Positions 23,883 to 34,935 of a stretch of 64,000 nt of DNA are shown piece by piece (position 1 is the stretch's first letter; every line of letters starts with the position of its first letter). The notes under the pieces are model-generated. The model was not told the DNA's origin. It made no database searches and worked only from the letters and a program-made list of their open reading frames with translations. Made by a program: the position numbers and the translations under genes. The stretch comes from Fibrobacter sp. (lineage in GTDB: Bacteria; Fibrobacterota; Fibrobacteria; Fibrobacterales; Fibrobacteraceae). The stretch covers positions 1 to 64,000 of the forward strand of contig JAKSIE010000004.1 in NCBI GenBank assembly GCA_024398995.1, written 5' to 3'.

Positions 23883-23910
23883 GGAGGATTCCGAAGAATC
23901 CTCCAAAAGT
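23883..23910 (-). terminator. Thioredoxin gene terminator
   Basis: On the minus strand GGAGGATTC, the stable loop TTCG, and GAATCCTCC, then TTTTAATTT. Confidence 0.9.
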
Positions 23911-23930: not shown

Positions 23931-24254
23931 TTACAGGTTACGGTCGATAACAGTCTTCACAGTGTTCTTGGGAACTGCGCCAACCACATTACCCACTTCA
24001 ACACCGTTCTTGAACAGCTTCATATTGGGAATGTTGGTGATACCGAAGCGAGCGCAAATATCGCTAACACCCGGTTCATCCACGTTAATCTTGGCGATGA
24101 TAGCCTTGCCTTCGTATTCGGCAGCAAGTTCTTCAACAACCGGCCCCATCATCATGCAAGGGCGGCACCAAGTAGCCCAGAAGTCGACAAAAACCAATTG
24201 ACCAGAGCTAATCACTTCATCAAAATTTTGAGCAGTAAGAGTCAAAGCAGCCAT
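23931..24254 (-). CDS. trxA: Thioredoxin with WCRPC active site
   Basis: A 107-residue classical thioredoxin with Cys30 and Cys33 in DFWATWCRPC, the cis-Pro in ITNIPNMKLFKNG, and no signal peptide, so it is a cytosolic disulfide reductase. The residue after the first Cys is Arg rather than the usual Gly of WCGPC, which may shift redox potential or partner choice. The ATG at 24254 is chosen because GGAGG lies six bases upstream; an ATG four codons earlier would bury that site. A TAAATTGT promoter-like element is at 24276-24283. Confidence 0.95.
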   Translation of the reverse strand: MAALTLTAQNFDEVISSGQLVFVDFWATWCRPCMMMGPVVEELAAEYEGKAIIAKINVDEPGVSDICARFGITNIPNMKLFKNGVEVGNVVGAVPKNTVKTVIDRNL

Positions 24255-24290
24255 TATAGCCTCCATTTACGGTACACAATTTAGCAAAAA

Positions 24291-25322
24291 TTAGAACGCA
24301 AAGCCAAGGGTATAGTTAATATCAAAGCCTACACCCTCATTTGTCACATCATTCACGTCTTTTTTGGCGCCCTTATCAATAAAAGCCTGGTTATAGATAA
24401 GACCCGCATCCAAGGAGGTGACAAAATGATTGCCAATCTGATACTTTCGACCCAGATACAAACCGAAGCCAATGCTGTTGCCAGTATCCTTGATATCATC
24501 GTTATTAACGTCGTTGAACTTATGCTCCACCTGAATGTATTCAAAAGTGAAATTGGCAGATGCAAACCAGCCCACATGCTTACGGTCAAAATAATAACGG
24601 AAACCTTCGGTCAAACCGTAAATTGAAACCTCACCACTTTGAAGACTCTTTGAAATGGTCTTACTGGCGTAGTAAGGACGGGTAATGACAGATGCATTTG
24701 AATTAACGACAACTTCCACAGTGGCATAGAAGGTCAAGCCATGACGGAACATGGGGTAGAACGTCAAGGAAATGGGCTGGATTTCGATGGCGAATGTAGG
24801 TTCGTCACTCAAAATCAGCTTAGGCTTTTCCGGAGTCTTTGTGGAATCCTTTACTGCGACTGCAGCGGGCTTTTCCGAAACTTGTTCTGCAGAAGCCGGA
24901 GATTCAACGGGGGTTGTAGTTTCTTCAGTCGCAGCTGTAGTTTCTTCAGCAGGAGCAGAAGGTTCTTCCGTAGTGGTCGCAACTTCAGCAGAGGCAGCAA
25001 CCTCCGCAGGGGCTGCATGTTCTTCAACAGAAGTTGCAGCTTCCACAGGAGCTGCATGTTCTTCAACAGAAGTTGCAGCTTCCACAGGAGCTGCGGGTTC
25101 CTCTGCAGGGGCAGCAACTTCAGCAGTATCAGCAGCAGATGCAACAGAATCTACAGCAATAGCGGTATCGGCGGTAGGAATCGCAGTCGAGTCAACAACA
25201 GAAGCAGAATCAACTGCAACCGCAGCCGTGTCAACAACAGCAACAGCTTCTACTTCCTGTGCAAGGGACACTGCACAGAAGCTTGCCACCCCGACAATAA
25301 AACTTCGAAAACTACACACCAT
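24291..25322 (-). CDS. Outer-membrane barrel with Ala/Glu/Thr/Pro-rich N-terminal linker
   Basis: A 343-residue exported protein. Signal peptide, then about 150 residues of low complexity (Asp/Ala/Val/Ser, then reiterated Ala-Pro-Val-Glu-Ala-Ala-Thr-Ser-Val-Glu-Glu units), then a beta-strand domain (about 180-343) ending in Phe (YTLGFAF), as in outer-membrane barrels. Two exact 39-base tandem copies underlie part of the linker. Last gene of a five-gene cluster, 28 bases after the preceding lipoprotein gene. The linker may reach through the envelope or bind peptidoglycan; function unknown. Confidence 0.75.
   Translation of the reverse strand: MVCSFRSFIVGVASFCAVSLAQEVEAVAVVDTAAVAVDSASVVDSTAIPTADTAIAVDSVASAADTAEVAAPAEEPAAPVEAATSVEEHAAPVEAATSVEEHAAPAEVAASAEVATTTEEPSAPAEETTAATEETTTPVESPASAEQVSEKPAAVAVKDSTKTPEKPKLILSDEPTFAIEIQPISLTFYPMFRHGLTFYATVEVVVNSNASVITRPYYASKTISKSLQSGEVSIYGLTEGFRYYFDRKHVGWFASANFTFEYIQVEHKFNDVNNDDIKDTGNSIGFGLYLGRKYQIGNHFVTSLDAGLIYNQAFIDKGAKKDVNDVTNEGVGFDINYTLGFAF
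25012..25089. repeat. Two exact 39-bp tandem copies inside a coding linker
   Basis: Copies at 25012-25050 and 25051-25089 are identical and encode 13-residue units in the linker of the barrel gene. The length is a multiple of three, so copy-number change would keep the frame. Confidence 0.9.
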
Positions 25323-25350
25323 ACATTTCCCAATCTTTCATCGATTAAAA

Positions 25351-27522
25351 CTAATAGCTAAAACGAATCTCGTCTGCATACAATGCCGCACCCACAGTTC
25401 CCTTATAGTAATTACCCATGGCACTAGATGCCATTGCAATGCGAATGTGGGTCACAGCAAAGTCTTCCGGTTTGTCGGTTTTCACAAGATGGTTATCAAT
25501 GCCATTCTTATTTTTCAGTGTCGAATTAAACGTACTTGAATTTTCAATCGGAGATCCAGCAAAGGGCGTTCCATACTTCAATTTCATTCTAATAGTTGTA
25601 TATCCTTCACGACTAGCCGGCGAAATTGAAACCACATCCGGATCATCCTCGGAATCCACTGTGGTAGCGCGATACCAAGCAGAAGCTACCATAGTATTTT
25701 CCGCTCCAGACCTATACTGGTTTTTTCCATCGTTTGATGTAGATGTTCTGTTTTCCAAAACAACATAAAGGTCACACGAGTCTCCGGCCCCCGCATACTT
25801 CACGTCAAATTCCACATAACGGGGACGAGCTTTAAACGGACGGCCAAAATCAATCAATTCGTTACCATCTTCATACTTCAATAAATTGTCACTACCGAGG
25901 AGTGCGGGAACTTTTTTGGGATTAAAATAACCAACAAACATATTGCCACTTGCAATTTTCCCAACAATATTTTTTGTCACCATTTTTACAACAGACTTAT
26001 TTTCGTTGACCGTTAAAGTCTTTCCTGCAGTTGCAGCATCATTATTACCATTATCCCAACCATCCACATCGTTTGTTCCGCCAAAAGCATCAGACACCCA
26101 CGTGTTAAAATCACTATTCTGATACTGGTAGCCCGCTCTGATTTCATACCTTTCAGAAACAAATCCATTGGAAACTGTAACCCACTTTGAAGTGAGATCA
26201 TAGCTCTCGCCATTTTCCAGTTCTTCAACAGAAGCGTCCTCAGACAATTCAATTCCGCTCACTTCCAGTTTAGACAGATCCGTCATGAATTTCAGATTAT
26301 CAAAATGAATCCAACGGAACCACTCGCCGTTTTCTTCGATACTATCAATAACAGCATCGTTACCGGCAATCTTCATTGCAGTAATTCGAGGTGCCACAGC
26401 AGCTTCCTCAAAATCAGCAGAAATAGTCCACTCCACAGTGCTGCCATCTTCAGCCATGATAGTCATGGTCACTGGTTCGCGCAAATCCAAAGCCTCAGCT
26501 TTCAAGTTCTGAGAAGCGGATTCAGAAACCTCGATAGCCAGCTCAACAGAAACGATTTCCTTCTGTTTCTGAAGATGAACAACAACAGTTTTATTTTCTG
26601 TATCAATGGTCGCATCTGCGATTTCATTCTTGGCAGAAATAGAAACCAATTCCTTTTCCGTAGAGGCAGGCTTTTCATCTTCAGCCGCAATATCAACCAC
26701 AACAATCCAAGTCTGCTTGGTCTTGCCGTCTTCTGCAGTCACCACAATTTCCTGGGCATTGGACCAATCCTCAATCTTTTCAGGATCCGGAGAAATAGAG
26801 GCTCCATCAGAAATCTTGTAGGAATTCACCGTAGCGTCTTCAATCTTCTGGTCGCTGGCCAACTTTATGGAAATGGTATCGCCTGCGTGACCAACCTTGA
26901 ACTGATTCTTGAAAGTCAGCTGCAAGTCCGTTTCCGTTTTCAGAGCCTTTTCACTGCTGCTAGAGGATTCTGCCTTTGCAGAACTGCTAGAACTTTTTGC
27001 ATTCTTGACACTGGAAGAAGACTTTTCGTCCTTGGAGTCAGAAGAAGGTTCTTCCTGTTCAACACCGGGAATGGTGATTTCTATTTTCCAAATAGCCGGG
27101 TCTCCATTTTCTGCGACAAGCATAACATAGATAACCTGGCTCTTGGGAATACGAATCTTGCTGCCGGCCTTAAGGTTCTTCTTCACATAAGAAACTTCGT
27201 TTGCCAGGGAATCCAAAGCAGCAGAGTCACTGGGAAATTCCTTGAACTTCCCGTCCACCAGGTGGAGGGTCGCCAAGTTACTCGCACTAATGGATTCAAT
27301 GGTCAAGGAATCCCATGTTTCCAAGGATTCCGGCGGAGCCACCGTGGTCACTTTAATGATGTGTTCTTCTTCAGAAACAGAAGCGTCACCATCTTGCTCC
27401 TCAAAAACGATGTTCTTGAAAGCCTTGTAGTGGGACGCCTCAAACTCATCGTAATCGGCGGTACAAGCCACAAAGGAGAGTACCATCGCTGCAAACGTAA
27501 AAAGGGAGAAAAACTGTTTCAT
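25351..27522 (-). CDS. Surface lipoprotein with repeated beta domains, poly-Ser linker and PCMD-like domain
   Basis: A 723-residue lipoprotein (lipobox FVAC, Cys20). After an N-terminal beta domain (25-155) comes a Ser-rich linker (160-198). Two or three DUF5018-like beta-sandwich modules follow, each ending in a V-T/M-A-E-D-G-x-T-x-x-W motif (TAEDGKTKQTWIV; MAEDGSTVEWTI). The C-terminal region (about 455-723) resembles the PCMD (putative carbohydrate metabolism) domain of Bacteroidota lipoproteins. A surface carbohydrate-binding role is inferred. It lies nine bases after a related gene. Confidence 0.75.
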   Translation of the reverse strand: MKQFFSLFTFAAMVLSFVACTADYDEFEASHYKAFKNIVFEEQDGDASVSEEEHIIKVTTVAPPESLETWDSLTIESISASNLATLHLVDGKFKEFPSDSAALDSLANEVSYVKKNLKAGSKIRIPKSQVIYVMLVAENGDPAIWKIEITIPGVEQEEPSSDSKDEKSSSSVKNAKSSSSSAKAESSSSSEKALKTETDLQLTFKNQFKVGHAGDTISIKLASDQKIEDATVNSYKISDGASISPDPEKIEDWSNAQEIVVTAEDGKTKQTWIVVVDIAAEDEKPASTEKELVSISAKNEIADATIDTENKTVVVHLQKQKEIVSVELAIEVSESASQNLKAEALDLREPVTMTIMAEDGSTVEWTISADFEEAAVAPRITAMKIAGNDAVIDSIEENGEWFRWIHFDNLKFMTDLSKLEVSGIELSEDASVEELENGESYDLTSKWVTVSNGFVSERYEIRAGYQYQNSDFNTWVSDAFGGTNDVDGWDNGNNDAATAGKTLTVNENKSVVKMVTKNIVGKIASGNMFVGYFNPKKVPALLGSDNLLKYEDGNELIDFGRPFKARPRYVEFDVKYAGAGDSCDLYVVLENRTSTSNDGKNQYRSGAENTMVASAWYRATTVDSEDDPDVVSISPASREGYTTIRMKLKYGTPFAGSPIENSSTFNSTLKNKNGIDNHLVKTDKPEDFAVTHIRIAMASSAMGNYYKGTVGAALYADEIRFSY

Positions 27523-27531
27523 ACTAACCCC

Positions 27532-29070
27532 TTAGTAGTTTAGCTTAAATTCATCAATAATCAACTGTGAGCCTTCGCCACCGCGGAAATTCTTTTTCAT
27601 TTGAGAACTTGTACCACCATCGGCCACGTAAGCCAAGGCAGAAGAAGCAAACATCACACGAATGGAGACAACTTCTTCGTCACCCGTTCCGAGAGTAAGG
27701 CCCTTGACGCCAATAGCTTCATCGGCGATCAAACCTGCATCACCACCATATATCAGCGGTACAGTCTTCTTTCCCATTTCCACAGAAGCACTGTCGGAAA
27801 TTTTGCCCGCAGCAACGATCTTGTTATCGGCGCTGACCAACGCAACGTAAATCAAGGAAGACTGAGGGTAAGTGTTATTGGTGTTACCCACATGATTGTA
27901 TGCATAGGTTACATCGAAGCTTACAGGGTGGCCTTCAAAAGGCTGACCAAATTTCATATACTGGGAGAAATCGGCAGGGCGCTTATCTGCACCGGCATCT
28001 TTGTTGTCGGCCATATAGATGGAAGCGGCATCCGTACCTGTGTAAGATCCTGCAAAGTAGAATCCACCAGCCATTTTCCAGCCACCCTCAATCTTAAGGA
28101 TGCCCACGGCAGCAGTTCCAGAAACAGACTTAGTAGTCAGAGTAATTTTTGAATTATTGAATATGGCATTAGCTTCAGAAGCCATGGTAATATCATAATC
28201 GACAACCACATTGAAAATTCCGTAACCCTTGGTCGCCATAGCATCGCTGGTACTGCCCCAGAAGGTCTTGTCCCAACTATCGAAACTGGAACCCGGCAGC
28301 TGCGGTTGGTCCGCAGAAGTACTGGATTCAATAACCTCTTCACTAGAGCTGGATTCGTCAACAGCTTCAGAAGAGCTAGAGTCTTCAACGATTTCAGAGC
28401 TACTAGAATCAACAACTTCTTCAGAGGAACTGGATTCTACGATTTCTTCGCTGCTGGAACTTTCCTCAACAGGTTCTTCGCTAGAACTAGATTCTACGAC
28501 TTCTTCACTAGAGCTAGATTCAGCAGTTTCTTCGCTGCTGGAGCTTTCCTCAACAGGCTCTTCGCTAGAGCTAGACTCATCCTCTTCTTCAGCGGAGCTG
28601 GAGGATACCTCATCATCTGCCGCTTCAGAGGAGCTAGAGGAGCTCTTATCCTTAGAGCTAGAAGACTTTTCTTCAGGGAAAGAAACCTCCCACACCGCAA
28701 CCGTACGGTTTTCATCATCCAAGACAACAATTCGCACGACATTACCATCGCCGAACTTGATGACAGAGCCTTCCTTCAGTTCTGCGTCCCAGTCAAAAGA
28801 CGGATCCACCGGATCATCGTCCGTAGCGACAAAATACTTGCTTCCGCCCAGAGCTTCCAAAGAGCCTACGACCAGGGAATCAACTGCACCAGACAAGGTG
28901 ATTTCGTGATTCTTGGCATCAATTGTAAAATCAACCGCCTCAAAAATGTCTACTGCGACCATTTCATCTGGAACAATTTTTGTACCAGAATCTTCACAGC
29001 CCGCCATTAGGCCTAAAGAGGCAAGCAAAGCACCACCAACAACCAACTTCTTTAAATGTTTACGTTGCAT
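27532..29070 (-). CDS. Surface lipoprotein with long poly-Ser/Glu linker and PCMD-like domain
   Basis: A 512-residue lipoprotein (lipobox LMAGC). A short N-terminal beta module (about 35-135, VWEVSFPEEK at its end) is followed by about 125 residues of reiterated S-S-S-S-E-E-x-V-E/D, then a PCMD-like domain (about 265-512; FDSWDKTFWGS, FGQPFEGHPVSFDVTY). It is a shorter relative of the next gene downstream. Poly-Ser linkers are typical of Fibrobacter cell-surface and cellulolytic proteins. The second gene of an apparent duplication, in the same operon. Confidence 0.75.
   Translation of the reverse strand: MQRKHLKKLVVGGALLASLGLMAGCEDSGTKIVPDEMVAVDIFEAVDFTIDAKNHEITLSGAVDSLVVGSLEALGGSKYFVATDDDPVDPSFDWDAELKEGSVIKFGDGNVVRIVVLDDENRTVAVWEVSFPEEKSSSSKDKSSSSSSEAADDEVSSSSAEEEDESSSSEEPVEESSSSEETAESSSSEEVVESSSSEEPVEESSSSEEIVESSSSEEVVDSSSSEIVEDSSSSEAVDESSSSEEVIESSTSADQPQLPGSSFDSWDKTFWGSTSDAMATKGYGIFNVVVDYDITMASEANAIFNNSKITLTTKSVSGTAAVGILKIEGGWKMAGGFYFAGSYTGTDAASIYMADNKDAGADKRPADFSQYMKFGQPFEGHPVSFDVTYAYNHVGNTNNTYPQSSLIYVALVSADNKIVAAGKISDSASVEMGKKTVPLIYGGDAGLIADEAIGVKGLTLGTGDEEVVSIRVMFASSALAYVADGGTSSQMKKNFRGGEGSQLIIDEFKLNY
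28330..28660. repeat. Degenerate codon repeat encoding Ser-Ser-Ser-Ser-Glu-Glu units
   Basis: About eleven approximate units of 24-36 bases, built on TCTTCGCTAGAGCTAGA-type cores (minus-strand Ser codons), within the lipoprotein gene. Unit lengths vary by whole codons. Confidence 0.7.
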
Positions 29071-29081
29071 AGTGATTCTCC

Positions 29082-30017
29082 TTAGAAGAATGCGACCAAT
29101 GAGAAATTCAAGGCCAAAAGGTTAATGGTAAAGTTTACGACATTCGCCACCACACGGCTATGGCTTTTGCCATTCTCTTCTACATCCAGAACCGAGGTGC
29201 TCAAGCCCAGCAAGCCCACAGATGTTTCAAAAGCAAATCGGTCCAGCACCATAATGCAAATGCCCGGATTGATGCCGACCTCAATAGACCAAGAACTATT
29301 TTTAGACTTGTCCAAATCCTCACCATTGTCGCTTTGAGAAATACCGTAGGAATAGCCTAGCTTAATCGATGTTTCATTAAACACATACAAATTTCTAGAA
29401 GAAATCACCTTAAAGTAATTTTTCAGCATAGGCTGGAAGAAAAATCCGTTGCTCACGTACTTGCGATGCTGCTTCATATCCAAAAGATCTTCGAGCAAGG
29501 AAAAATCGATATCGTACCAAGTACGGGAGTAGCCAGCCCTCATACCAATGGCCATTGCATCCTTAACGAAGTAACCACCGAAGGCTTCCAAGGTAAAGGT
29601 ATAGCCATAGGCCTCGTAGACATCGCCAATCATAATATTCAAAGCGTCGTCTTCAGAATTAGCCTGAATCAGGGAAAGGGTCAAGCCAGAATAGATATGT
29701 CCCTTGGAAATAGTTTCGTCGGGTTCTACAGGATACAAGGCGCCAAGCACGCCGCCAGTCTTAGAACTGGAGGAAGAATACATGGCCTCTACGGAACTAG
29801 AAGAAGAGGACACCGCCTCTACTAGACTTGAAGAACTTAACACTACGGAAACAGAGCTGGAGGATTCCGTGCTGTAAGAATCAACGACCGCAGAACTGGA
29901 AGACTCTACGACAGCAGGTTCGGAACTAGAAACAGCTTCCTGCGCGTCTTGAGCAAAGGAAGACACTCCACCTAACAAAAATGCAAATAATGCAACTAAC
30001 CCAAAATTGTTTTTCAT
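29082..30017 (-). CDS. Outer-membrane barrel with Ser-rich N-terminal region
   Basis: A 311-residue exported protein. Signal peptide (cleavage near SSFAQ), then a Ser/Val-rich tract with five S-S-S-S clusters (about residues 25-90), then a beta-strand domain ending in Phe-Phe (FSLVAFF). The start is placed at the ATG at 30017, because the upstream in-frame part overlaps the preceding gene and lacks a signal-like profile. Eleven bases separate it from the next gene. Probably an outer-membrane barrel partnered with the lipoproteins encoded after it. Confidence 0.72.
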   Translation of the reverse strand: MKNNFGLVALFAFLLGGVSSFAQDAQEAVSSSEPAVVESSSSAVVDSYSTESSSSVSVVLSSSSLVEAVSSSSSSVEAMYSSSSSKTGGVLGALYPVEPDETISKGHIYSGLTLSLIQANSEDDALNIMIGDVYEAYGYTFTLEAFGGYFVKDAMAIGMRAGYSRTWYDIDFSLLEDLLDMKQHRKYVSNGFFFQPMLKNYFKVISSRNLYVFNETSIKLGYSYGISQSDNGEDLDKSKNSSWSIEVGINPGICIMVLDRFAFETSVGLLGLSTSVLDVEENGKSHSRVVANVVNFTINLLALNFSLVAFF

Positions 30018-30039
30018 AATGATTCTATTAATCACTTTT

Positions 30040-31635
30040 TTAGAAAGCAAAGATAAACCCTGTTGTAAGAAGGCCCAAGCCAACAGCACCAAGACCTACA
30101 CCAATTCCAAACTTGATATCGCCATTATCGTTCAATCGATTATTGTCCTTAATCATCTTCTGAGTATCGGGACTATCAAATGCAGCCAACTTTTCATAGG
30201 CATGCTTCTTATCAGCAGCCTTGCTCCAATCACGTTCGGCAAGCAACCACAAAGTTCCGCCAACAACAATAGGAGCAATAGACGCGTACATCATAATACG
30301 GCCTTTACGATGTTTACTACGTCTTGCGTTAAACTCGTTCTGGGACTGAATGAAGTCAAGGTCATCAAGCACAGGCGTCATTTCAACGTTAATCAAGTTC
30401 GGCATGTACGGTCTGATTTCCGTAGTCACGGAGGTATCGCGATAACCGACCTTACGCAAGTAGATCGTCGCACTCACCTGGGGCTGAACGTTATCAACCA
30501 CCATATCGGTGATGTAGTGAGGCATTACGTACTCCGTGGGAGCTTCGTTGACGAAAACTTCAACAGCTTCGGGGTCCGTATTCAAGGTCAAACGGGTTGA
30601 AGGACGGAGCACAGGGATTGTCACCTTGTTCAGGCTATCCTTGTTAATGCGAACAACGGCGGAGCCCCACCATTCCACATCCTTAAGGACCTGCATCACA
30701 GAGATAGTGTACTTGCCGGGCCTGATATTCTTGATGGTATCCGGAGCAACCTGCTTCAGAGGAATACCGTTCACAAAGAGGGAGCATGCGGCAGGTTCAG
30801 AAATAACAAGGAGGTTTGCACTGCCCTGAGGATAAAGATCGATTTTTTCTTTCTTCTCGATAATTACGGGAACAACGTAGTTGGAAAGAGAAAGGTCGAT
30901 CATGGCCTCGTCTTCCAGGTTGTAAAGTCGCTTCAAATCCAAGCGGAAAATCTTGATAAACGGATTTGCCTTGTCAGCAGCAATGCTATCCTGAATTTCG
31001 CGTTGGCGGATTTCCTCTTCGACCTTGGCAATCTCTTCCATTTTCTTACGGTCGTCTTCCTTGGCCAAGGCTGTTTCAAAGTCGTCATCGGCACCGTCGT
31101 CTTCGGCCACAGTTTCAGCAACAGTTTCGGACTGGGCGGCAACAGACTCCTTGATGGCGTCGGTCATGATAACGGAGGTGTCCTTTTTGATTTCGACCTC
31201 TTCCTCGTCATCTTCCTCGGTTTCCTCAACCTGCTGGCCGTTGCTTCGCTGAAGTTCGGCATTGGCGGCATCCGCAAGACGAGCAAAGCGCTTCATCTGC
31301 TTTTCTGTCGGCTTCTTAAGGTAAACCGTATCCTTTTCAATCTTTACGAAAATAGCTTCCAGTTCAACAGAGTCGCCACTGACCCAATAGCGAACAGCGA
31401 CTTCCCTACTTTGGGGGACTTCAGGAACAGCGGCTTTCACAGAATCTACAATAGTCTTGGACGTAGAATCCACAGCAGCGGGAGCTGCGGTTTGAACCTC
31501 ATCGGCAGATTGCGCAGATGAACCCTCAAATACAGTTGCTTGAGCAGAAGAATCTTCCGTGGACCAGTCATCATCATCCTGGGCAAAGGCGATTACGCTC
31601 AAGAACGAAAACAGAACAAAAATCTTCCTCAACAT
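30040..31635 (-). CDS. PEGA-domain envelope protein with C-terminal membrane helices
   Basis: A 531-residue exported protein. Signal peptide (cleavage near AFAQ), an acidic low-complexity part (20-60 and 130-200, many Glu/Asp), a charged helical stretch, then two PEGA-like beta modules: LLVISEPAACSLFVNGIPLKQV (about 275) and TRLTLNTDPEAVEVFVNEAP (about 350). Two hydrophobic segments lie near the end. PEGA domains often bind surface carbohydrate or S-layers. First gene of the five-gene cluster. TATCTTTC ends five bases before its ATG with no Shine-Dalgarno. Confidence 0.75.
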   Translation of the reverse strand: MLRKIFVLFSFLSVIAFAQDDDDWSTEDSSAQATVFEGSSAQSADEVQTAAPAAVDSTSKTIVDSVKAAVPEVPQSREVAVRYWVSGDSVELEAIFVKIEKDTVYLKKPTEKQMKRFARLADAANAELQRSNGQQVEETEEDDEEEVEIKKDTSVIMTDAIKESVAAQSETVAETVAEDDGADDDFETALAKEDDRKKMEEIAKVEEEIRQREIQDSIAADKANPFIKIFRLDLKRLYNLEDEAMIDLSLSNYVVPVIIEKKEKIDLYPQGSANLLVISEPAACSLFVNGIPLKQVAPDTIKNIRPGKYTISVMQVLKDVEWWGSAVVRINKDSLNKVTIPVLRPSTRLTLNTDPEAVEVFVNEAPTEYVMPHYITDMVVDNVQPQVSATIYLRKVGYRDTSVTTEIRPYMPNLINVEMTPVLDDLDFIQSQNEFNARRSKHRKGRIMMYASIAPIVVGGTLWLLAERDWSKAADKKHAYEKLAAFDSPDTQKMIKDNNRLNDNGDIKFGIGVGLGAVGLGLLTTGFIFAF

Positions 31636-31651: not shown

Positions 31652-31678
31652 AAAAAAAGGGGGGTTACCCCCCCCTAT
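31652..31678 (-). terminator. Terminator of the RsmB-like methyltransferase gene
   Basis: Six G and eight C residues flank a TTA loop, followed on the minus strand by seven T residues. It ends only four bases before the promoter element of the surface cluster. Confidence 0.8.
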
Positions 31679-32683: not shown

Positions 32684-34084
32684 CTACTTTTCCTTGGCAA
32701 GGGGGTTTTCAAAAATATTTTGACTTGGAACCTGGTAAGTCATGCCCTGAATCTGCTGAATAGCTCCTTCCGGGAGGGTTACACCGGTCAAAGTCACGTA
32801 AATCCAGCTGGGAGCCTCAGATTCCAGCATCTTAGCCATAACCTTGCGGTCACCACTGTACAGCACAACTTCCTGTGCTCCAGCAGGCATATCTCTCAGG
32901 ACAAAGGTCTCGCAGGCAACGTCGCGAACGAAGTGAGACGTACCCTTGATACCCACAACCACACTGTTCAGCATGCAGTTATTGCTCTGGGTGGAGTCAT
33001 TCTTGTCAACAATCACGTTAACCTTGCTCACCAGGCCAGCGGCCCTAACCAGAGTATCTGCCCCAAGGTCCAAGGTATCCTTCAGGTCCTTAATTTCCTT
33101 TTCAAGAACGTAGCGAGAAGTTCCAGCCTGGGAAACAACATTGTCCTGGATCTTGCGGTATTCCACTCGGAAAGAGTCTTCGGGGACTTCCTTAGGAACG
33201 TTCAGCCACCAACGGCCAAGACTGTCCGTCGTAGTCATCACGGTAAACTTCAAGGAATCGCCTTCAAATCCGAAACCGTACAAGTCCGTAATCAAGTTGA
33301 CTTCGACACCTTCGCAAGCCTTACCGTTCTTGCAGAAAACCTGGCCAGAAATTCGGGAAACCAGCTTAGCTTCCGCTTCGTTTTCCTTGATCAAGGAATC
33401 GATTTCAGCGGTGGGGCTCCAAATAAAGGGACCAATTTCAAGAGTGTCGCCAGTTTTCAATTCGCCGCCCATGCTCCAGGTACGATAGACCACTGTATCG
33501 GACAGGCCAGAATTCTGGAGTTTAGCCACAATCTGGGCATCACCCGGGTAGAATTCCATCCACCAGTTACCTTCCGGCAGCAGAATCTCGAATGTATCAC
33601 CGGCAAACACGCTTTCATAGAACGGAGTTCCAGAAACGCCAACGATGAAATGAGAGCCTACCTGGACTGCAGGTTCAAGCACATCTTCGTAGACCAAACT
33701 ACTCTTGAATACAGCAGCCTTAGACAAGGTAATCTTGTCAAGATCCTTGGCCTTGCGAGTCGCCTTGGGCAGGAAGAAAATTTCAGAAACAGCAGCGTCA
33801 ATGACTGCCAGCTGGAAGGTGTCAGAAAGAACGGAGTCGAAAGAGTAAGCACCGTTAGAATCTGTGGTCACTTCGATCAATTCGGGAACGCCAACACCGC
33901 TTTCTACGTGGGTTCGAGCAATACGGACAATTGCATCAGAGGCTTCGGAGCCATCGGCACGATAAACCACGCCGGCAACGGTATTACCCGTATCGGTAAC
34001 TGTTCCCGCGACCTTATCTGTACATCCCACCAAGCCCAAAATCAGGGCCATAAGCATAGAAGATTTCAAAATAATCTTACTCAT
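32684..34084 (-). CDS. Lipoprotein with carboxypeptidase-regulatory-like domains
   Basis: A 466-residue lipoprotein (lipobox LVGC, Cys21). The first mature region (about 28-110) is a carboxypeptidase-regulatory/CnaB-like beta-sandwich: TVAGVVYRADGSEASDAIVR, then TDSNGAYSFDSV. A second similar module (about 245-330) has SRISGQVFCKNGKACEGVEV and TDSLGRWWLNVP. The remainder is beta-rich. Such modules are structural or ligand-binding parts of surface proteins. Its start codon overlaps the stop of the TIGR02147 gene by four bases (ATGA), so regulator and lipoprotein are translated as a pair. Confidence 0.78.
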   Translation of the reverse strand: MSKIILKSSMLMALILGLVGCTDKVAGTVTDTGNTVAGVVYRADGSEASDAIVRIARTHVESGVGVPELIEVTTDSNGAYSFDSVLSDTFQLAVIDAAVSEIFFLPKATRKAKDLDKITLSKAAVFKSSLVYEDVLEPAVQVGSHFIVGVSGTPFYESVFAGDTFEILLPEGNWWMEFYPGDAQIVAKLQNSGLSDTVVYRTWSMGGELKTGDTLEIGPFIWSPTAEIDSLIKENEAEAKLVSRISGQVFCKNGKACEGVEVNLITDLYGFGFEGDSLKFTVMTTTDSLGRWWLNVPKEVPEDSFRVEYRKIQDNVVSQAGTSRYVLEKEIKDLKDTLDLGADTLVRAAGLVSKVNVIVDKNDSTQSNNCMLNSVVVGIKGTSHFVRDVACETFVLRDMPAGAQEVVLYSGDRKVMAKMLESEAPSWIYVTLTGVTLPEGAIQQIQGMTYQVPSQNIFENPLAKEK

Positions 34085-34935
34085 TTTTCATCCTCTTCAG
34101 TTTCGGGTGGAAGAGCCATTTTTTCCTTGCTCAGGGGGAAGAACTGGATGTTCATCTGGCAGACCATAGCTTCGCCTTCGTCGGAACGGATGATATCCAC
34201 AATTTCCTTACGGAACAAGTCAATCTTACTGATAATGCGTTCCAATCCTTCGGGAGAAACGCTCATCGTCATACAAGATACATTTCTGCGTTCAGTACTG
34301 TAGTGATCCAGCGCATTTTTTCCCAAATCAATCATTTGCTTCTGGAATTCATGCACAAACAAAGGTGCAATTTCACTACCGCTGAAGATGGCCTTGTTCT
34401 CAGAGTGGAAGAAACCGTCTTCGCCAATTTCAATCAATCCCAAGGAACGAAGCAACTGGATAGTCTGCTTTGCCTGAGGCAGGGTAATCTTGGGGTTGAG
34501 GAACAAAGCCAATTCCTGGATGTTCTTTTCGTTAATCTTCAGAACTGACAATGCTTCACGGGCTGCAACATAATACCACTTGCTGTAGTATTCCTGCTGG
34601 CTCTTGGTAAGAGATTTGATAGCGCTAGGCAACAAGGCGGACATTTGGTCGAAGATGGCCTGCTTGGAGGCAGCCGTTGTCGCATGAGTAAAGTCAACCA
34701 TCAAAGTAAAGTAGCGGCCTTCCTTTTCATTCAGACCCAATGCCGCAATAAACTTAGGCAGCATTTGCGGAGTCAGGGACTTGCGGCCACGAATCAGATC
34801 CAAATAGAAACCAGACGAGGAATACCCCGCCTTCTTAGCGAAGGATCTGTACGAAAAATACCTCTGGACGGACTTACGATAGTCGTAGTAGTCCTGCAGA
34901 TATTTTCTGTAGTTATAATATGCGTATACGTTCAT
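34081..34935 (-). CDS. TIGR02147-family protein, probable transcription regulator
   Basis: A 284-residue cytosolic protein of the TIGR02147 (DUF4423-containing) paralogous family characteristic of Fibrobacter. The N-terminus VYAYYNYRKYLQDYYDYRK is the family start. A helix-turn-helix-like region follows (about 28-75: YRSFAKKAGYSSSGFYLDLI, then RKSLTPQMLPKFIAALGL). The C-terminal part carries the DUF4423 signatures (EYYSKWYYVAAREAL; QTIQLLRSLGLIE; CMTMSVSPEGLERI). DNA binding is inferred from the helix-turn-helix. It is translationally coupled to a surface lipoprotein. TATATTTA ends six bases before its ATG. Confidence 0.85.
   Translation of the reverse strand: MNVYAYYNYRKYLQDYYDYRKSVQRYFSYRSFAKKAGYSSSGFYLDLIRGRKSLTPQMLPKFIAALGLNEKEGRYFTLMVDFTHATTAASKQAIFDQMSALLPSAIKSLTKSQQEYYSKWYYVAAREALSVLKINEKNIQELALFLNPKITLPQAKQTIQLLRSLGLIEIGEDGFFHSENKAIFSGSEIAPLFVHEFQKQMIDLGKNALDHYSTERRNVSCMTMSVSPEGLERIISKIDLFRKEIVDIIRSDEGEAMVCQMNIQFFPLSKEKMALPPETEEDEK

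Follow-up and report, generated by a model that had tools for sequence, protein, structure and literature searches.

Proteins with a PCMD domain (Pfam PF13201) occur in Bacteroidota and Fibrobacter and have solved structures and no known function. In the family represented by BT2081 (3hbz, 4het, 4jrl and 3s30), one or more Ig-like domains are combined with a jelly-roll PCMD domain and a lipoprotein-type leader, and BT2081 has a deep pocket for which sugar binding was proposed (PMC2954218). Two described assemblies consist of an outer-membrane barrel with docked surface lipoproteins: 1) in the SusCD utilisomes, the N-terminal Ig-like domains of the surface glycan-binding proteins (SGBPs) dock on SusC and a C-terminal domain binds the glycan (PMC7618045); 2) in BamG-BamH, which belong to the BAM of Bacteroidota and are reported in most phyla of the FCB group (PMC12611786), the N-terminus of BamH docks on BamG (PMC12578637, PMC12611786).

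The unit described here, SERB-PCMD1-PCMD2, shares with the BT2081 family the Ig-like and jelly-roll domains, the leader and, in PCMD2, the pocket motifs, but differs in having two PCMD proteins, Ser linkers, an extra N-terminal domain, a stalk, a dedicated barrel (SERB) and an exchanged tip, and in the loss of the pocket Asp from PCMD1. It resembles the SusCD utilisomes in its barrel, lipoproteins and, as proposed below, its division into a docking N-terminus and a binding C-terminal domain; however, it contains no SusC, SusD or enzyme, and its barrel is probably too small for such uptake. Docking of a surface lipoprotein by its N-terminus, shown for BamG-BamH, is proposed here, whereas BamG is a 14-stranded relative of FadL, the SERB core has 225 residues with 8–10 predicted strands, and the role differs. 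The preliminary description knew of no system with this composition, which holds for the barrel-PCMD pair in the open-access literature searched but not for the PCMD proteins themselves (BT2081, PMC2954218). A search of the open-access literature (subscription papers being outside its scope) found no paper on PCMD in Fibrobacter.

The window, a 64-kb stretch on contig 59 of a 2.8-Mb draft genome, has its nearest named loci in Fibrobacter MAGs, and the relatives compared are mostly MAGs. Since F. succinogenes S85 is not among the 58 named loci, published proteome (PMC6851124) and expression data (PMC6204037) could not be mapped to the genes described here. The gene order on the minus strand is rsmB, the PEGA-like gene, SERB, PCMD1, PCMD2, AEB, trx, hisF and a further gene. 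This last gene, beyond hisF, we take to be tldD-like. The run of five ORFs from the PEGA-like gene to AEB was recovered, all on the minus strand, with the coordinates of the preliminary description, and the gaps of 22, 11, 9 and 28 nt were obtained again on recomputation; for SERB, a start at 30017 was better than one at 30092 (Table 1). A hairpin scan gave 29 terminator-like sites against 10.3 expected, many of them being nested versions of the hairpin between rsmB and the PEGA-like gene. This hairpin and the one between trx and hisF suggest that a six-gene transcript from the PEGA-like gene to trx is likely, with trx probably included. Upstream of rsmB, positions 32684–34935 hold a gene for a carboxypeptidase-regulatory-like lipoprotein that overlaps a TIGR02147 regulator gene by 4 nt, a pair retained in many hisF-type loci.

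Table 1. Features of the SERB-PCMD1-PCMD2 locus and its neighbours (window positions)
Feature	Position	Strand
Secreted PEGA-like protein (acidic linkers; two hydrophobic segments at the C-terminus); separable gene that opens the probable transcript	30040..31635	-
SERB, a small beta-barrel of the outer membrane; obligate PCMD partner	29082..30017	-
SERB conserved core: GGLLxxLxPVxxDEAI motif and barrel	29082..29759	-
Poly-Ser linker of SERB, specific to the lineage; most orthologues lack it or have a different one	29760..29945	-
PCMD1 lipoprotein, composed of an N-terminal domain, a Ser-rich linker and a PCMD domain that lacks the pocket Asp of BT2081	27532..29070	-
PCMD1 Ser-rich linker, found at 20/20 loci	28306..28668	-
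PCMD2 lipoprotein, mature N-terminus CTADYDEF	25351..27522	-
PCMD2 conserved N-terminal domain (aa 21–150), proposed docking part	27073..27462	-
PCMD2 stalk of DUF5018/Ig-like repeats, often gapped among relatives	26398..26925	-
PCMD domain that forms the type A tip of PCMD2; exchanged among close relatives	25351..26145	-
AEB: DUF3575 barrel with Ala/Glu-rich linker; optional neighbour	24291..25322	-
trx (thioredoxin), probably last gene of the transcript	23931..24266	-
Terminator-like hairpin between rsmB and the PEGA-like gene	31656..31676	-
Terminator-like hairpin between trx and hisF	23883..23904	-

The single-chain model of the SERB core (pLDDT 77.6) folds as a small outer-membrane barrel, as expected from the preliminary description, and the GGLLxxLxPVxxDEAI stretch is conserved ahead of the first strand. 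SERB of the window had no Pfam match over the cut-off; in the family, weak PF13568 matches were obtained for 4 of 33 members (best 3.5e-4), and matches to DUF3575, OMP_b-brl and OmpA_like were only weak. The model aligned with OmpA at Z 10.7, amid many unrelated barrels, and the Foldseek/VIA barrel matches are generic and name no function. No Pfam match to the peptidoglycan-binding OmpA domain was found in SERB or AEB.

The SERB profile matched 88 and PF13201 matched 96 of 167 Fibrobacterota genomes, with both present in 86, SERB alone in 2, PCMD alone in 10 and neither in 69 (Fisher 3e-33, uncorrected for kinship); in the two SERB-alone genomes (G108 and G109), SERB lies close to a contig end. 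Within genus g1, the corresponding numbers are 72, 0, 1 and 7. In loci L032–L069, L100–L157 and L178–L197, with the window copy left out, a PCMD ORF starts within 40 nt of 111 of the 112 SERB ORFs (81 of 82 distinct ones), usually after a gap of 3–15 nt and most commonly of 9 or 12 nt, and the sole SERB without a nearby PCMD stands at a contig end with no downstream bases.

PCMD genes are paired with barrel genes elsewhere as well. In the sister genus g16, the gene for a BT2081-like PCMD lipoprotein overlaps or abuts a PF13568 barrel gene at 5 of 5 loci. The Bacteroidota evidence (Parabacteroides, Prevotella and Phocaeicola) comes from five records of a plasmid collection, in 4 of which a PCMD lipoprotein gene is followed after 13–23 nt by a small barrel gene, two of these being annotated as porin family protein and two being ORFs that align with them. 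The gene order is thus the reverse of that found here, and the barrel is from another sequence family. In the fifth, the PCMD gene of Parabacteroides distasonis lies within a DUF4493 run (L212:164–7547) and has no adjacent barrel, nor does the PCMD lipoprotein gene of g14 (L198). No paper describing the Bacteroidota pair was found in the open-access literature. Kinship of SERB with the Bacteroidota partner barrel or with AEB was considered but found no support, as no profile match extended beyond the signal peptide; hhalign gave a probability of 1.1 for SERB against the Bacteroidota barrel, and the two pairings may therefore not be homologous. A third PCMD setting is seen at L204:4093–6260, L205:7101–9280 and L206:7596–9787, where a secreted PCMD protein, by eye lacking a lipobox, has no barrel neighbour and lies next to a family 4 glycosyltransferase-like gene (searched in L206 only).

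Both lipoproteins, earlier called PCMD-like, matched PF13201 (PCMD1, 4.5e-10, 40.1 bits; PCMD2, 5.5e-17, 62.7 bits; cut-off 28), and their description as a duplicated pair was borne out, yet the duplication is old, with 48 of 194 residues identical between the two PCMD domains of the window. In a domain tree of 99 rows, built from hits covering 60% of the profile, PCMD1 formed one clade (support 100/100). PCMD2 consists, in order, of a mature N-terminus that is mostly C[TS]ADYD, an N-terminal domain, a Ser linker, repeats (missing in many relatives) and the PCMD domain. A lipobox could be identified in 31 of 38 PCMD2 proteins, 29 of them with at least two acidic residues at +1 to +6, and in 16 of 20 PCMD1 proteins, of which 11 were acidic (background, 16 of 59); this type of acidic signal has been reported for surface lipoproteins of Bacteroidota (PMC12578637).

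The model of the PCMD2 tip (pLDDT 78, pTM 0.82) aligned with 4jrl, 4het, 3hbz and 3s30 at Z 13.9–14.2 over 180–186 residues (rmsd 3.5–3.6 Å), the next row having Z 8.1, and with CBM16/CBM29 modules at Z 7–8. The W..GN and ASG(N/S) motifs and the pocket residue Asp259 of BT2081 have counterparts in PCMD2, and the Asp is kept in 54 of 55 PCMD2 tips. In PCMD1, the residue aligned with Asp259 is not Asp, suggesting that PCMD1 tips may not bind a sugar. The levan-binding BT1761, called a paralogue in the BT2081 paper (PMC2954218), was dropped as a guide to function, since PMC7618045 describes a ThuA-like binding domain for it.

We found that the C-terminal tip of PCMD2 has been exchanged between close relatives, which is a new observation. 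Among the best 70 pairs listed (PCMD2 length 400 aa or more), G024, the nearest relative of the window, shares with it 100% identity in the SERB core, 94% in the C-terminal part of PCMD1 and 86% in the N-terminal 170 residues of PCMD2, but 48% in the C-terminal 230 residues of PCMD2. DNA identity drops from about 0.80 to 0.50–0.59 near position 26140 and returns to 0.98 in AEB, with sharp borders. The same shape of replacement was found in G008/G018, where the swap is inside one tip type (type A), and in G028/G002, making three close pairs in all.

In the domain tree, 21 PCMD2 tips (type A) stood apart from the other 34 (type B). Type B is not shown as a clade, since PCMD1 falls among its tips. 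At the position of BT2081 Asn200, all 21 type A tips have Asn and all 34 type B tips have Ser, and alongside this change the equivalent of Phe202 is mostly Tyr in type B. On a 52-row tree of SERB DNA (excluding L063 and L069 for lack of SERB, and one SERB shorter than 600 nt), the tip type changes at least 10 times (bootstraps 9–10), 6 of the changes being forced by well-supported branches. Both types were found in genera g18 and g23 besides g1. One of the g18 genomes, G158 (type A), consists of a single contig, so that errors in MAG assembly are unlikely to account for the whole pattern. Tentatively, and as something possible rather than probable, we suggest that the two types are an old balanced polymorphism, in which the same two ligand-binding tips, different in their pockets, would have been kept and traded across genera of the Fibrobacteraceae with a single conserved barrel beneath them, either as exchangeable heads that set specificity (in the recognition of glycans or of self and non-self) or as an escape from phages.

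Unusual arrangements were noted at two places. The draft genome G013 contains two SERB-PCMD loci (L042 and L068) with different tip types, possibly through contamination (6%) or as a donor copy. At L063:9087–9986, a signal peptide and GGLL motif resembling those of SERB run directly into a type B PCMD tip within one ORF of 299 aa, which looks like a SERB-PCMD2 fusion produced by a deletion.

Adjacency and co-occurrence strongly support the earlier idea of a barrel and surface lipoproteins as one unit as far as SERB, PCMD1 and PCMD2 are concerned. On balance, we favour, with some reserve, the view that these three form one outer-membrane assembly, with surface lipoproteins docked on a barrel and an interchangeable ligand-binding tip, probably for a glycan. 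SERB would be the fixed docking platform by which PCMD1 and PCMD2 are held at the surface; by analogy with the SGBPs and BamH, the conserved N-terminal domain of PCMD2 may dock on it, the Ser linkers and Ig-like repeats would form a stalk, and the jelly-roll PCMD domain, judging from its modelled fold, may be the tip that binds the ligand. Recombination would exchange the tip of PCMD2 and leave the barrel and the remaining locus in place, which would let the assembly alter either its ligand or its recognition by others. If true, this would add a small dedicated barrel to the known combinations of barrel and surface lipoprotein, SusCD and BAM. The dedicated partner gives a direct experimental handle on PCMD proteins, and the natural tip swaps in otherwise near-identical loci offer a natural experiment on tip recognition. 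The preliminary description had also proposed the uptake of plant polysaccharide products: a carbohydrate role is plausible for binding only, whereas uptake through so small a barrel, in a unit with none of the SusCD components, is unlikely (no Pfam match to SusC or SusD was found in ten proteins scanned around the locus).

Tip diversity might instead be driven by enemies (phages or predators) that use the PCMD2 tip as receptor or target, the barrel being a passive anchor. Such pressure would fit the replacement of the outermost domain only, sharply and repeatedly, beside SERB sequences that are up to 100% identical, as well as the presence of both tip types in several genera; however, the types differ within the predicted pocket, at the Asn200 and mostly also the Phe202 equivalents, which fits a change of ligand, and we regard this explanation as rather unlikely. 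The open-access literature yielded nothing relevant on phage receptors or trans-species polymorphism in this context.

It is more doubtful that SERB serves in export or assembly (Slam-like, or as a BAM accessory), bringing its PCMD lipoproteins to the surface and remaining outside the final structure. Its one-to-one linkage with PCMD lipoproteins is consistent with this role, as are the lack of barrel neighbours for the secreted PCMD proteins of L204–L206 and the report that BAM of the FCB group bears surface lipoproteins (PMC12611786). However, SERB is small and has no periplasmic domains. Moreover, Bacteroidota export many surface lipoproteins without dedicated barrels.

The solved homologues are named putative glycoside hydrolases, and such an activity of the PCMD tips would agree with the retained pocket Asp of PCMD2. 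It is improbable, since the position of Asp338, proposed as the second acid of BT2081, is taken by Asn in almost every PCMD2 tip and by Gln in at least one, and the authors of the BT2081 study left activity open (PMC2954218).

The genes flanking the unit behave differently. The PEGA label given earlier is weak: the protein of the window has no Pfam match at E ≤ 1, although PF08308 was matched by 5 of 19 orthologues (best 1.2e-4). AEB matches DUF3575 (1.6e-7). Full-length PEGA (E < 1e-150) lies within 10 kb of SERB in 45 of the 68 genomes with both and elsewhere in 23, and it is absent from 20 of the 88 SERB genomes. At the hisF-type loci (n = 23), PEGA was present in 23, PCMD1 in 19 and AEB in 8, and in 12 of them called genes, by eye DUF1007-like, NicO-like and TIGR02145-like, are inserted between PEGA and SERB. 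Four regions (L213, L214, L215 and L218) retain PEGA, AEB and hisF without intervening SERB or PCMD, and genome-wide profile searches gave neither a SERB nor a PCMD match in G007 and G149, which carry PEGA...AEB regions; no AEB was seen in L216, L217 and L219. These data suggest that the SERB-PCMD module and its neighbours are separable: across Fibrobacterota the SERB-PCMD order is conserved and the five-gene order is not. From the gene arrangement, PEGA, AEB and trx are probably co-transcribed neighbours outside the core assembly, and their probable co-transcription makes a wider complex possible in this lineage. The original proposal of one envelope complex in which all five products bind and import plant polysaccharide products, favoured by the single probable transcript between two hairpins and by PEGA at every hisF-type locus, was rejected on the placement of PEGA and AEB and on the absence of a transporter-sized barrel, and we hold it to be very improbable.

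A low-complexity region had been ascribed to every product of the five genes. In a strict test (30-aa windows under 2.4 bits, loci L032–L069 and the window), such regions were found in 20 of 20 PCMD1, 27 of 38 PCMD2, 9 of 23 PEGA, 3 of 35 SERB and 2 of 9 AEB proteins, compared with 14 of 79 secreted-like, 10 of 27 lipoprotein-like and 6 of 180 other ORFs. The PEGA protein of the window itself fails the test, and SERB orthologues have Pro/Ala/Glu tails or no tail. Low complexity is thus genuine in the PCMD lipoproteins and incidental in the barrels, where it is a local accident, and it was rejected as a common feature of the system after these counts. The DNA of the SERB poly-Ser linker is 0.62 identical to that of G024, and most of the barrel DNA is 0.95–1.00 identical.
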